Source: Phytoactinopolyspora mesophila
GTDB lineage: Bacteria > Actinomycetota > Actinomycetes > Jiangellales > Jiangellaceae
Length of the DNA stretch: 64,000 bases
Direction: 5' to 3'
Assembly (NCBI RefSeq): GCF_010122465.1
Contig: NZ_WLZY01000001.1
Coordinates: 248,001-312,000 of the forward strand
Positions 44,302 to 47,537 of the stretch are shown piece by piece. The translations under genes were made by a program, and so were the position numbers. Below the pieces are notes generated by a model, which worked only from the letters and a program-made list of their open reading frames with translations, was not told the DNA's origin and did not search any database. The first letter of the stretch is position 1, and each line of letters begins with the position of its first letter.

Positions 44302-44395
44302 CTTGTCCAGCCGCTGGGCCGGGTGGCACTGCGAACTTGATCAGGAGCGTGGACCGGCGGTGAAACGGAGTGGGGCCCGCATGCACGCTGCGTTC

Positions 44396-44602
44396 TCAGG
44401 GCCGTGCGGACGCGCGTATCGCCGTCGCGTCGATGCCGCCGAGTTCGAGCAGGACGACGTGGTCGTATTCCAGGCCTTTGGCGAGGGCCGCGGCAACGAG
44501 TTCTACACGTTCGCAGCCGGGCAGGACCGAATGGAGAGATTCGAGGACGTGCTCGGGCGCGATGACTCCGACGAGGCCCTCAGCGAGCAGTGCGCCTTCG
44601 AT
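44396..44602 (-). pseudogene. UvrD/HelD-type helicase fragment
   Basis: Sixty-eight codons on the minus strand read GVIAPEHVLESLHSVLPGCE, then VELVAAALAKGLEYDHVVLL. This is the 'V..A..AKGLE.D.VV..E' motif of the C-terminal superfamily-1 helicase domain, closest to HelD/HelR RNA-polymerase-associated helicases. It is bounded by stops on both sides, with no P-loop. A relic. The following 44620-44864 contain open but unassignable minus-strand scraps (for example LRDVPVAFGDHTGLGLIV). Confidence 0.6.
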
Positions 44603-44864
44603 CTACGTTGGAGCCGGTCGGGGTAGGAGTAGAGCAGCCAGCCGGCACGCGAAGGCGTTCTTCACCGCGCCTGGCCATGGCATGGCCCAGGTTGTGGTCC
44701 GGCCCAGCGCCGTCTCGGGCGACGGCTCACATCGCTAGTCCGCCGCCACCGAAACGTCGTCGATGCGGGGCACTATGAGGCCGAGGCCGGTGTGGTCACC
44801 GAAGGCCACGGGCACATCTCGGAGGGTGGAGGCGTCGCGGAGTCTGCCGAGGCCGGGCCCTGCC

Positions 44865-44990
44865 TCAGCGGTCAACGGGCAAACCAGCGCCGTTCACGTT
44901 GGCGCCCTGTAGCAGGTCCGACTTGTCGACCGGCGGATCGGTGAAGACGTCCTCGACAAGATCGGCGATCTCGATCCTGGTCACGGTCAT
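44865..44990 (-). CDS. DUF2795-like short protein, probably truncated
   Basis: A perfect GGAGG site lies seven bases before ATG 44990. The 41 residues read MTVTRIEIADLVEDVFTDPP, then VDKSDLLQGANVNGAGLPVD. The 'KSDLL..A...GA' part matches the start of DUF2795 domains; the usual ending 'LPDR.Y.....LW..LP' is missing, so a frameshift or deletion has probably removed it. The second DUF2795-like gene 200 bp away is intact. A dyad at 45124-45143 lies 134 bp upstream. DUF2795 proteins are small and of unknown role. Confidence 0.5.
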   Translation of the reverse strand: MTVTRIEIADLVEDVFTDPPVDKSDLLQGANVNGAGLPVDR

Positions 44991-45123
44991 GACAAAACCT
45001 CCAAAGTGTGATCTCTGTCCGCCGGTCAGGCTCAGCGAAAGGAGCCCGTCTGGATACCGGCTGGCTGTGATGCCCGACGGCGGGCCAAGGTGCGCCGCCG
45101 AGCATTCAGTGCGGGAGCCTACT

Positions 45124-45143
45124 ATAACGTTGCGGAAGGTTAT
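45124..45143. promoter_or_regulatory. Shared dyad, copy 1
   Basis: ATAACGTTGCGGAAGGTTAT is a 20-bp dyad with arms matching at 7 of 8 positions around GCGG. The same AACGTT-N4-AAGGTT core occurs at 45419-45434, upstream of the second DUF2795-like gene. Probably a binding site for one regulator, the MerR protein at 45541 being the nearest candidate. Confidence 0.55.
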
Positions 45144-45190
45144 CGAGCCGGGGACCAGCTGGCGGCGCGGGATGATACGGCCGCTCCAAG

Positions 45191-45400
45191 CTAGGCGCTC
45201 TCATCCGGAAGGTCTGGCAGATGCGGCCATAGGTCGCCGATTGTCCGGTAGGTAATGTCCGGCAGGGCATTGAGAGACTGCAGGACATCTACGGGTGCGC
45301 GATTAGCTGTGGCCCACGCCAGGAGGTCGGCCTTGCCCACGGATCGCGCATGGAATGCTTCCTGGACCGCTGCGGCGATGTGGGACCGGGCGACGTTCAT
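45191..45400 (-). CDS. DUF2795 protein
   Basis: The 69-residue protein reads SHIAAAVQEAFHARSVGKAD, then LLAWATANRAPVDVLQSLNALPDITYRTIGDLWPHLPDLP. This is the complete DUF2795 pattern (helical, with 'K.DLL..A....A...V...L..LPD..Y....DLWP.LP'). The function of the family is unknown; members are frequent in actinobacteria. ATG 45400 has only a weak GGTAGA site; an upstream GTG in the same frame is possible. Divergent from the MerR/RF3 operon, with a dyad just upstream. Confidence 0.7.
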   Translation of the reverse strand: MNVARSHIAAAVQEAFHARSVGKADLLAWATANRAPVDVLQSLNALPDITYRTIGDLWPHLPDLPDESA

Positions 45401-45418
45401 GGCAATGGAGTCTACCCT

Positions 45419-45434
45419 AACGTTATGGAAGGTT
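45419..45434. promoter_or_regulatory. Shared dyad, copy 2
   Basis: AACGTTATGGAAGGTT repeats the core of the 45124-45143 dyad (AACGTT-N4-AAGGTT). It lies 19 bp upstream of the DUF2795 start and about 110 bp before the MerR gene. Confidence 0.55.
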
Positions 45435-45540
45435 GCGTTATGCCTGGTTTGGCATGCTGCCAAGAGGGCTGGGTTCGTGGTTGAGTCTTCCGTTCGGTTA
45501 ACATTGGCCGTTTGTGGTCGTAGTTGTCGAGAGGTCCGTC

Positions 45541-45957
45541 GTGTCGTTGCAGCACATGCAAATCGGTGAGGTCGCCGAGCGGGTCGGACTTTCCCTGCGC
45601 ACCATCCGGTACTACGAAGAGGTGGGCTTGGTGCGCCCGTCCGCCCGGACCACGGGCGGGTTTCGCCTGTATACCGAGCCGGATGTGGCGCGGCTGCGCC
45701 TGGTGAAGCGGATGAAGACCCTGGAGTTCTCGCTCGAGGAAATGGGTGACCTCCTGGGTGTCCTGGACCGGCTCGACGAGCCGGAAACAGATCCGGAGTT
45801 GCGTACGGAATCGATCGAACGCCTGGTGACATTTCGAGTTCTCGCGCAGGAACGATGCGCCGATCTGCGGAGTCAGCTGGAGACTGCCGAGTCGTTCGCG
45901 GCAGATCTGCGCGGTGAGATCTCGCGGCAGCGGCGGCGCGTGAAGGAGGTTCGATGA
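45541..45957 (+). CDS. MerR-family regulator coupled to release factor 3
   Basis: The 138-residue protein has a MerR winged helix (MQIGEVAERVGLSLRTIRYYEEVGLVRPSARTTGGFRLYTEPDVARLRLVKRMKTLEFSLEEMGDLL). A long dimerisation coiled coil follows, with one Cys (RCADLRSQL) and no metal-binding cluster or ligand domain. GTG 45541 follows GAGAGG; ATG 45556 is also possible. The stop overlaps the RF3 start (ATGA), so the two proteins are made together, an uncommon pairing. Confidence 0.88.
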   Translation: MSLQHMQIGEVAERVGLSLRTIRYYEEVGLVRPSARTTGGFRLYTEPDVARLRLVKRMKTLEFSLEEMGDLLGVLDRLDEPETDPELRTESIERLVTFRVLAQERCADLRSQLETAESFAADLRGEISRQRRRVKEVR

Positions 45958-47537
45958 ACTCGGTCGCTGGTGTAGACGCTGAGGCGACACGTCGTCGTAC
46001 GTTCGCGGTGATCAGCCACCCCGACGCGGGTAAGTCGACGTTGACTGAGGCCCTGGCTTTGCATGCGAGGGTGATCGCGGAGGCCGGTGCGGTTCACGGC
46101 AAGGCCGGGCGCAAGGGCGTGGTGTCGGACTGGATGGAGATAGAGCAGGCTCGGGGTATTTCCATCACCTCCGCGGCCTTGCAGTTCGAGTACCACGGCA
46201 ATGTGATCAATCTGCTGGACACCCCTGGGCACGCGGACTTCTCCGAGGACACCTACCGGGTGCTGGCGGCGGTCGATTGCGCCGTCATGTTGCTCGATTC
46301 GGCCAAAGGGCTGGAGCCACAGACGCTGAAGCTGTTCGACGTGTGCCGGCATCGTGGCGTTCCGGTTATTACGTTCATCAACAAGTGGGATCGCCCCGGC
46401 CTCGAGGCGCTGGCGTTGTGTGATCAGCTGGAGGAGCGGATCGGCCTCCGGCCGACGCCCCTGAACTGGCCAGTCGGCATCGCCGGTGAGTTTGCCGGTG
46501 TGCTCGATCGTGATGACGGGCACATGGTCGCCTTCGAGCGTGCGCCAGGGGGCGCGCGGCGCTCCGTCGAGCGGCGGCTCGAGCCGGACGAGGCCGAGCG
46601 CGAGTTCGGCGATCCATGGGTGACAGCGGTCGAGGAATCCGCGCTGCTGGACGAGTACGACGAGTCGTCGTTCCTGGCGGGAAAGACAACGCCGCTGCTG
46701 TTCGGCGCCGCGGTCGCCAACATCGGAGTACGGCAGCTGCTGGACGTGCTGGTGCGACTTGCGCCGTCACCGGCACCGCGGCCAGACCGGGAAGGTGTGC
46801 CCCGGCCGCTCGACGCTCCATTCTCAGGCTTGGTGTTCAAAGTGCAGGCTGGGATGGACCGGGCACACCGGGACCGGGTGGCGTTCGTCCGTATATGCTC
46901 CGGCAGGTTCGAACGTGGCTCCGTCGTCACCCACGCCGCGACCGGACGGCCATTCGCCACGAAATACGCCCAAGCGATCTTCGGCCGCGACCGAGACACG
47001 ATCGACGTCGCCTATCCCGGAGACATCGTGGGGCTGGTGAACGCCACGGCGTTACGGCCGGGGGACACCTTGCACGATCGGGAGGCTCCGGTGGAGTTTC
47101 CCGGGATGCCGTCGTTCGCGCCGGAGAACTTCGCCGTGTGCCGAGTGGCCGACACGAGCAAAGCCAAGCAATTCCGTAAGGGCATCGAACAGTTGGACCG
47201 CGAGGGCGTGGTGCAGGTGCTCCGGTCCGACCTGCGGGGTGACGCCGCCCCGATTCTTGCGGCGGTGGGGCCGCTGCAGTTCGAGGTGACCGCGCACCGG
47301 ATGGAGAACGAGTTCGGCGCGCCGGTTCGGCTGGAACGCCTGGCGTATTCTCTGGCTCGTCGGACCCGGCCGGAGGACCGCGAGGCGTTGGATGCCGAAC
47401 ACGACGTCGAAGTGGCTGAACGCACCGACGGTGCGTGGCTGGCGTTGTTCAGTGACAAGTGGCGACTCTCGTCGGTGCAGCGTCGCCACCCCGACCTGCT
47501 TCTGGAATCCTTGGTCGCGGGCGACGTCGAGGTCTGA
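45954..47537 (+). CDS. prfC: Peptide chain release factor 3
   Basis: The 527-residue translational GTPase has G1 SHPDAGKSTLTEAL (about residues 22-35), switch I EQARGISITSAALQF, G3 LLDTPGHADFSEDTYR and G4 NKWDRPG. RF3-type domains II and III follow, ending LFSDKWRLSSVQRRHPDLLLES. RF3 recycles class I release factors from the ribosome and supports post-peptidyl-transfer quality control. The Lys-Trp in NKWD replaces the usual NKLD. It is not an EF-G or TetM paralogue: length and C-terminus are RF3-like. Cotranscribed with the MerR gene. Confidence 0.93.
   Translation: MNSVAGVDAEATRRRTFAVISHPDAGKSTLTEALALHARVIAEAGAVHGKAGRKGVVSDWMEIEQARGISITSAALQFEYHGNVINLLDTPGHADFSEDTYRVLAAVDCAVMLLDSAKGLEPQTLKLFDVCRHRGVPVITFINKWDRPGLEALALCDQLEERIGLRPTPLNWPVGIAGEFAGVLDRDDGHMVAFERAPGGARRSVERRLEPDEAEREFGDPWVTAVEESALLDEYDESSFLAGKTTPLLFGAAVANIGVRQLLDVLVRLAPSPAPRPDREGVPRPLDAPFSGLVFKVQAGMDRAHRDRVAFVRICSGRFERGSVVTHAATGRPFATKYAQAIFGRDRDTIDVAYPGDIVGLVNATALRPGDTLHDREAPVEFPGMPSFAPENFAVCRVADTSKAKQFRKGIEQLDREGVVQVLRSDLRGDAAPILAAVGPLQFEVTAHRMENEFGAPVRLERLAYSLARRTRPEDREALDAEHDVEVAERTDGAWLALFSDKWRLSSVQRRHPDLLLESLVAGDVEV

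Follow-up and report, generated by a model that had tools for sequence, protein, structure and literature searches.

Regulators of the MerR family that govern stress genes are a known kind. CueR, SoxR, NmlR, TipA and BmrR share with the protein discussed here a MerR_1/MerR domain and a promoter dyad adjoining the regulator gene. The WhiB7 regulon of mycobacteria and streptomycetes brings together inducible ribosome-protection and rescue factors plus efflux; release factor 3 (RF3, the product of prfC) is usually regarded as a housekeeping, dispensable factor. Here we consider a locus of Phytoactinopolyspora mesophila (a genus whose family we take to be Jiangellaceae), in which a merR gene overlaps prfC, and the two stand divergent from a gene of the DUF2795 family. 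The locus lies in a stretch of 64,000 nucleotides (nt) of contig NZ_WLZY01000001.1, positions 248,001 to 312,000. This whole stretch is called the window below, and coordinates refer to it.

The gene content assembled below is like that of the WhiB7 regulon, but at this locus we find a MerR protein as regulator and a palindrome as predicted operator; no WhiB7 search was made and we do not assign the locus as a member. Within the MerR family the type found here differs in having a predicted operator that overlaps the -10 element, a short C-terminal region with a conserved cysteine, and a predicted target set that includes RF3 and HelD. The window RF3 differs from RF3 in general by the overlap with the MerR gene and, in relatives, by its place behind the predicted MerR operator. 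In the regulon of the rifamycin-associated element (RAE), which has HelR, an actinobacterial palindrome likewise stands before a HelD-type gene, and the regulator is described as unknown in two reports (PMC12802891, PMC10719064). The RAE has 19 bp and the palindrome here 20 bp; the two may nevertheless be the same element. Unlike the RAE/HelR group, the four linked HelD copies scanned here score above the cut-off of the HelD_BACSU model, and none of them reaches that of a HelR model. According to the passages that bear on function, HelD removes stalled RNA polymerase (PMC10719064), and RF3 of Escherichia coli promotes peptidyl-tRNA drop-off and acts in quality control (PMC10192219). Among the titles and abstracts that our searches of the open-access literature listed (subscription journals being outside the scope) there is no description of a MerR regulator that goes with RF3 and HelD; two papers mention DUF2795, once each.

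The best explanation as a whole, which we hold to be somewhat more probable than its negation, is a circuit of MerR and a palindrome that serves clearance of ribosomes and RNA polymerase together with transport. The merR product would be a small regulator of the one-component type, belonging to a distinct subfamily of actinobacterial MerR proteins, and its dimer is predicted to bind CTACCCTNACGTNAGGGTAG, overlapping a -10-like element (mostly TAGNNT) of the target promoters. The clear target in the window genome would be the divergent DUF2795 gene, and merR-prfC may be controlled from the same palindrome, 124 nt upstream of merR. With an inducer present, control would shift and more DUF2795 protein and RF3 would be made. 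In other actinobacteria the predicted set is larger: RF3, HelD, DUF2795, SulP, MFS or FUSC transporters, ADP-ribosylglycohydrolase and RNase J, the last in one case with an ABC-F-like protein. Such a response would clear stalled ribosomes and RNA polymerases and move small molecules across the membrane, and the window looks like a reduced version of it. Its likeliest trigger would be natural inhibitors of translation or transcription; a response to them is suggested by the roles of RF3 and HelD plus the presence of RNase J and transporters. The first-pass annotation had proposed a translation-stress circuit in which MerR controls DUF2795 proteins. A limitation of the circuit to DUF2795 is not supported, nor is translation stress as its trigger, to which gene content is an indirect pointer.

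The joint production of MerR and RF3, proposed at the outset, agrees with the layout of the two genes. The start of prfC overlaps the stop of merR as ATGA, with AAGGAGG shortly upstream, and its product passes both RF3 equivalogs, NF001964 with 581.9 bits (cut-off 473) and TIGR00503 with 506.7 bits (cut-off 466.95), as well as the RF3_C domain (PF16658). The merR product exceeds the Pfam cut-offs of MerR_1 (PF13411, 65.7 bits), MerR (PF00376, 54.4 bits) and MerR-DNA-bind (30.4 bits), and its gene has alternative in-frame GTG starts upstream, at 45541 and 45514. None of the 20 NCBIfam models listed for it reaches its cut-off. An identity as a metal-resistance regulator was rejected on the scores for CueR (70.6 bits, cut-off 147.4), MerR (69.6, 150.85), ZntR (67.3, 167.95) and CadR-PbrR (64.4, 151.45). 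A cysteine aligned with C101, in the short C-terminal region, is kept in 62 of 88 MerR rows, and C101 may be a sensor. Phytoactinopolyspora species are the nearest named relatives.

The palindrome was at first recognised only in part. Exact copies of the motif AACGTTN4AAGGTT stand at 45126-45141 and 45419-45434; the rest of the assembly of 6,512,012 bases has none, and the reversed control pattern is absent from it (0 matches). If 2 mismatches are allowed, 7 matches are seen in the window, where shuffles would lead one to expect 0.93; 5 of the 7 fall at the two exact sites, on either strand or shifted. The real repeat is a palindrome of 20 bp, of which the motif covers the right two-thirds plus three flanking bases; AACGTT-N4-AAGGTT as the true unit is rejected, as it cuts the conserved form on the left. 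The dyad described upstream of both DUF2795-like genes does exist in two exact copies, but it is part of a larger palindrome and one of the two genes is a remnant. The second copy does lie in the divergent region before merR-prfC, as had been stated. The core derived from 98 non-redundant sites is CTACCCTNACGTNAGGGTAG, and 3 nt outside it one more position is conserved, an A (T on the opposite side); the ACCCT-ACGT-AGGGT of the core resembles TipA/Mta-type sites. Scores below count matches to 18 consensus positions. A second operator over merR-prfC in the window was rejected, the best candidate between the palindrome and merR having 10/18, which is chance level. In two other Phytoactinopolyspora loci (L077 at 3927, L088 at 1308) a further site, scoring 14/18, does lie closer to merR; the window is without one.

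Conservation of the dyad, which the first-pass annotation had asked about, is evident beyond the genus: the palindrome is kept before DUF2795 and often before RF3 or merR-RF3. The MerR loci are 80 named ones, the best of 311 relatives from a scan with the window MerR; their flanks reach 4 kb at most and are shorter where a contig ends. They contain 164 sites of at least 13/18, against 27 in one base-shuffled copy per locus. Across 148 genomes of the class, sampled regardless of MerR, 20 have the palindrome with at most 1 mismatch, 23 sites in all, while the reversed control has 0; of the 20 sites that were examined as loci, 17 stand beside a gene of the MerR subfamily and/or SulP, L165, L168 and L169 being by neither. 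A genome-wide scan of 20 named genomes at up to 3 mismatches gave 79 sites against 18 in the control, and most of the sites listed are near a gene of this MerR subfamily, an outcome favoured by the choice of genomes.

The adjacency of merR and prfC was also sought in other actinobacteria. RF3 lies within the flanks of 38 of the 80 MerR loci (tblastn, E <= 0.001; 35 at 1e-5), and close MerR relatives near RF3 occur in Phytoactinopolyspora, Nocardiopsis, Micromonospora, Streptomyces, a metagenome-assembled genome of Streptosporangiales and many Pseudonocardiaceae. Linkage of MerR and RF3 recurs in several actinobacterial families, and a strain-specific arrangement is rejected. An RF3-anchored set gives the reverse view. 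Of 296 genomes, 97 supplied its 98 loci, with the window genome left aside and some stretches truncated at contig ends; this MerR is in the fetched stretch of 12 of them and, in 10, directly upstream on the same strand. A site of at least 14/18 is found at 11 of the 12 MerR-linked RF3 loci, as against 2 of the 86 others (Fisher p 8e-12, uncorrected for kinship). L249 is the linked locus without such a site; at L317 (genome G150), one of the two unlinked exceptions, a MerR gene lies just beyond the stretch fetched. Within the window's family a close MerR is found in 5 of 22 genomes. DUF2795 of the window type (E <= 1e-6) is present in all 5 of them and in none of the other 17, two of which are incomplete. 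RF3 is present in 20 of the 22 genomes: five carry MerR next to it plus the palindrome, whereas the fetched stretches of the remaining 15, among them one from the window's genus, contain neither.

An RF3 tree with 120 rows can accommodate the MerR-linked label with 10 changes, whether gains or losses, of which starred branches force at least 7; the tree omits matches spanning fewer than 420 residues and five duplicate loci, and L317 was labelled linked by hand. Because of these forced changes we think that the linkage was gained or lost several times. A single origin followed by many losses is an alternative reading that the tree would also allow. Among the ten long-branch RF3 rows seven are MerR-linked (L317, L276, L255, L116, L316, L130, L274) and three are unlinked (L291, L306, L300); there is a hint that the MerR-linked RF3 may be specialised. 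In P. endophytica (L059, which is G002, and L086) MerR, operator and DUF2795 are present and RF3 matches in three pieces only, so that its gene is broken or the assembly erroneous.

The placement of the palindrome bears on how it might act. In the window TAGACT (minus strand, 45414-45409) overlaps the main palindrome and stands 8 nt before the DUF2795 ATG; it is a -10-like element of the TAGNNT type at the right end of the dyad, and no clear -35 could be assigned. In 40 listed target promoters this end of the palindrome reads TAGNNT in 31 and TANNNT in 36. The DUF2795 start is 10-11 nt past the palindrome in 7 of the 16 listed genes, a spacing that a leaderless transcript would show (4 to 259 nt in the others), and the window gene looks leaderless. 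Since the operator overlaps the -10 element, repression relieved by an inducer is the mode that we prefer; classical MerR activation would be the alternative.

Beyond the window's family the palindrome has further neighbours. In Pseudonocardiaceae and Micromonospora it precedes RF3, HelD, DUF2795, SulP and MFS genes, and at some loci it precedes ADP-ribosylglycohydrolase or runs with RNase J; in the gene islands that were read, sites also precede FUSC. In Prauserella it stands before a run of DUF2795, RNase J and an ABC-F-like gene (L217 9906-11534), whose product has the Pfam domains ABC_tran and ABC_tran_Xtn; we call it ABC-F-like only, because with 348.5 bits it misses the NF000355 cut-off of 380. 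In many genomes the site lies directly before RF3 or merR-RF3. Sites of 14-18/18 are found 12-113 nt upstream of RF3 in Lentzea, Saccharothrix, Amycolatopsis, Prauserella, Longimycelium, Micromonospora and G150, and sites of 13-18/18 upstream of merR-RF3 in Nocardiopsis and Streptomyces.

HelD was searched in 16 genomes; it is in none of 6 from the window's family and in 8 of 10 from the MerR set, one copy each, and all 8 copies have a site of at least 14/18 at 5-65 nt upstream by our own gene-start calls (the match in G308 contains an in-frame stop). The 148 genomes sampled regardless of MerR contain a single HelD at E <= 1e-150; it belongs to G150 and is flanked by an MFS gene and by the RF3 beside MerR, with a weak site of 13/18 before HelD and one of 16/18 before RF3. 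The four HelD copies scanned with protein models (L144, L212, L213, L317) reach 509-533 bits with the HelD_BACSU model NF041464 (cut-off 419) and 120-138 bits with the HelR models NF041254 and NF041258, which have cut-offs of 750 and 1100; three of these four have sites of at least 14/18 and one of 13/18. In P. halotolerans a HelR-like fragment, cut by the locus end, follows RF3 with a 14/18 site upstream and reaches no model cut-off.

Two working DUF2795 genes had been assumed in the window. One is intact: its 69-residue product is the sole PF11387 match in the genome at E <= 0.001. The other is rejected as a functional gene. Its product gave no match in the Pfam scan, PF11387 included, aligns to no more than positions 1-36 of a 67-position profile made from its relatives (E 3.7e-9), and meets a stop after 41 residues; for these reasons we take it as a truncated remnant holding the first half of the protein. 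It is 69% identical over 35 residues to a full-length second copy in P. halotolerans. An AlphaFold2 model of DUF2795 (mean confidence, pLDDT, 82.4) has helices at 5-16, 23-32 and 37-44; Foldseek found no match to it in the PDB at E <= 0.001, and the profile compared with PDB sequences gave at best an unrelated chain at E 0.037. Among DUF2795 genes listed from MerR loci, 14 of 16 have a site of at least 14/18 upstream. This list leaves out copies behind RF3 (L090) or HelD (L216, L217), a second match in L213, weak matches in L115 and L125, and three genes without a site. Gene maps came from a simple gene caller of our own, based on codon usage; several DUF2795 genes escaped it and were recovered with tblastn or a hidden Markov model.

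Features of the merR-prfC locus in the window
Feature	Position	Strand	Remarks
Main palindromic operator (predicted)	45412..45431		16/18 consensus; before DUF2795, 124 nt upstream of merR ATG
Degenerate operator copy (predicted)	45119..45138		13/18; 128 nt upstream of DUF2795 remnant
merR	45556..45957	+	133-aa MerR-family regulator, proposed regulator; over Pfam cut-offs
prfC (RF3)	45954..47537	+	527 aa; equivalogs NF001964 and TIGR00503 over cut-off
Intact DUF2795 gene	45191..45400	-	69 aa; PF11387 34.5 bits, cut-off 25; divergent from merR
DUF2795 remnant (likely)	44865..44990	-	41 aa; aligns to profile positions 1-36 of 67
Remnant leader	44994..45118	-	Between degenerate operator and remnant; predicted 13-bp hairpin

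Some DUF2795 genes stand behind a leader. The hairpin predicted for the remnant leader does not stand out clearly from shuffled sequences, of which 13 in 200 fold equally well (z -1.62), and the leader is partly similar to that of P. halotolerans. A hairpin-forming stretch is common to the leaders at window 44994-45118 (minus) and L076 2262-2520 (minus), and both have a possible reading frame starting about 12-15 nt past the operator. The Nocardiopsis leaders between operator and DUF2795 start (L089 2426-2572, L091 2678-2823, L094 2161-2302) measure 142-147 nt and have strong predicted hairpins with z of -2.4 to -4.1. A leader similar by eye precedes a DUF2795 gene without an operator in G226 (L323). 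Rfam gave a single match, below the gathering score, in window 44500-46000, and only tRNAs in five related loci, the three Nocardiopsis leader loci there having no match at gathering score. The piece 44303-44870, which separates the remnant from an alcohol dehydrogenase gene, has the look of coding DNA in decay.

Two further arrangements of the MerR subfamily were seen. In nine Cellulomonas-type loci (L078-L085, L087) the close MerR relative has an acyltransferase gene on one side (identified by Pfam in one of the copies) and on the other a gene that by eye is guaA-like; upstream stand two palindromes, which score 13-14/18, and there is no RF3 match. In two genomes (L166, L167) a tandem pair of genes of the subfamily stands behind a single palindrome.

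Several observations weigh against a MerR circuit for ribosome and RNA polymerase clearance plus transport, and we prefer to state them together. This MerR is absent from the fetched stretch of 86 of the 98 RF3 loci, and the gene islands were read from genomes picked for holding it. The overlap of the operator with the -10 element is unlike classical MerR spacing. Among 500 random stretches of the window, 215 reach or exceed the 10/18 of the best candidate between palindrome and merR. At up to 3 mismatches six relatives of the window have 8 sites against 6 for controls, a slight excess; 6 of those 8 sit in the merR/DUF2795 region, and the palindrome stands out there by location, not number. 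The profile behind the DUF2795 count in the window's family was built partly from the genomes then found, with sequences from four of the five. Of nine strong DUF2795 matches (E < 1e-20) in the search of 296 genomes, three (G003, G226, G290) are without a 14/18 site in the fetched locus. P. limicola has the palindrome at merR-prfC, but its DUF2795 gene lies elsewhere without one, and in P. halotolerans the promoter of one copy carries a site that reaches just 12/18.

No neighbour is more common than SulP by gene calls, and it gives no pointer to translation: it is in the flanks of 45 of the 80 MerR loci, compared with the 38 that have RF3. The strongest counter-reading is a regulon centred on SulP, in which MerR would be mainly a regulator of transporters (SulP, MFS, FUSC) answering an organic or inorganic anion or an electrophile, with RF3, HelD and DUF2795 recruited locally and no coherent rescue response. 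The sites before SulP, MFS and FUSC genes agree with this, and the cysteine aligned with C101 would suit a thiol sensor. Local recruitment does not readily account, however, for the repeated company that RF3, HelD, DUF2795 and RNase J keep with the operator across several families and gene orders, and in our opinion this explanation is unlikely, if the most serious of the rivals. Less probable still, we believe, is that only the link between MerR, palindrome and DUF2795 works in the window genome, merR-prfC being a passive unit placed by history with RF3 constitutive. The good palindrome at the DUF2795 promoter and the lack of an above-chance second site up to merR fit such a view; sites directly upstream of RF3 (14-18/18) or merR-RF3 (13-18/18) in other genomes, and the second sites in the two Phytoactinopolyspora loci, do not. 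The shared dyad could also be chance or a duplicated promoter fragment without a regulator, given that the window sites possibly come from local duplication of DUF2795 plus its promoter. We regard this as very improbable, since the palindrome tracks the MerR gene and is conserved across families.

The MerR-palindrome circuit for clearance and transport thus remains our preferred explanation. A broader version of it is tentative, and we rate it as rather less than an even chance: a scattered actinobacterial MerR stress regulon, often arranged as gene islands of RF3, HelD and RNase J (once an ABC-F-like gene) with transporters, in which one small-molecule or thiol signal would clear stalled ribosomes and RNA polymerases, and DUF2795 would be a small effector with a leaderless or structured-leader transcript, acting on one of the two machines. 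Judged from sequence comparison, RF3 here has the appearance of a stress gene that is coupled to a regulator of its own and keeps company with an enzyme that recycles RNA polymerase. If this is true, clearing of ribosomes and of RNA polymerase would come under one switch in bacteria that are rich in antibiotic producers, and the uncharacterised DUF2795 family would gain a functional context. The palindrome would offer a compact operator that is open to direct testing, and the control by MerR, if experiments bear it out, would amount to a new stress circuit.

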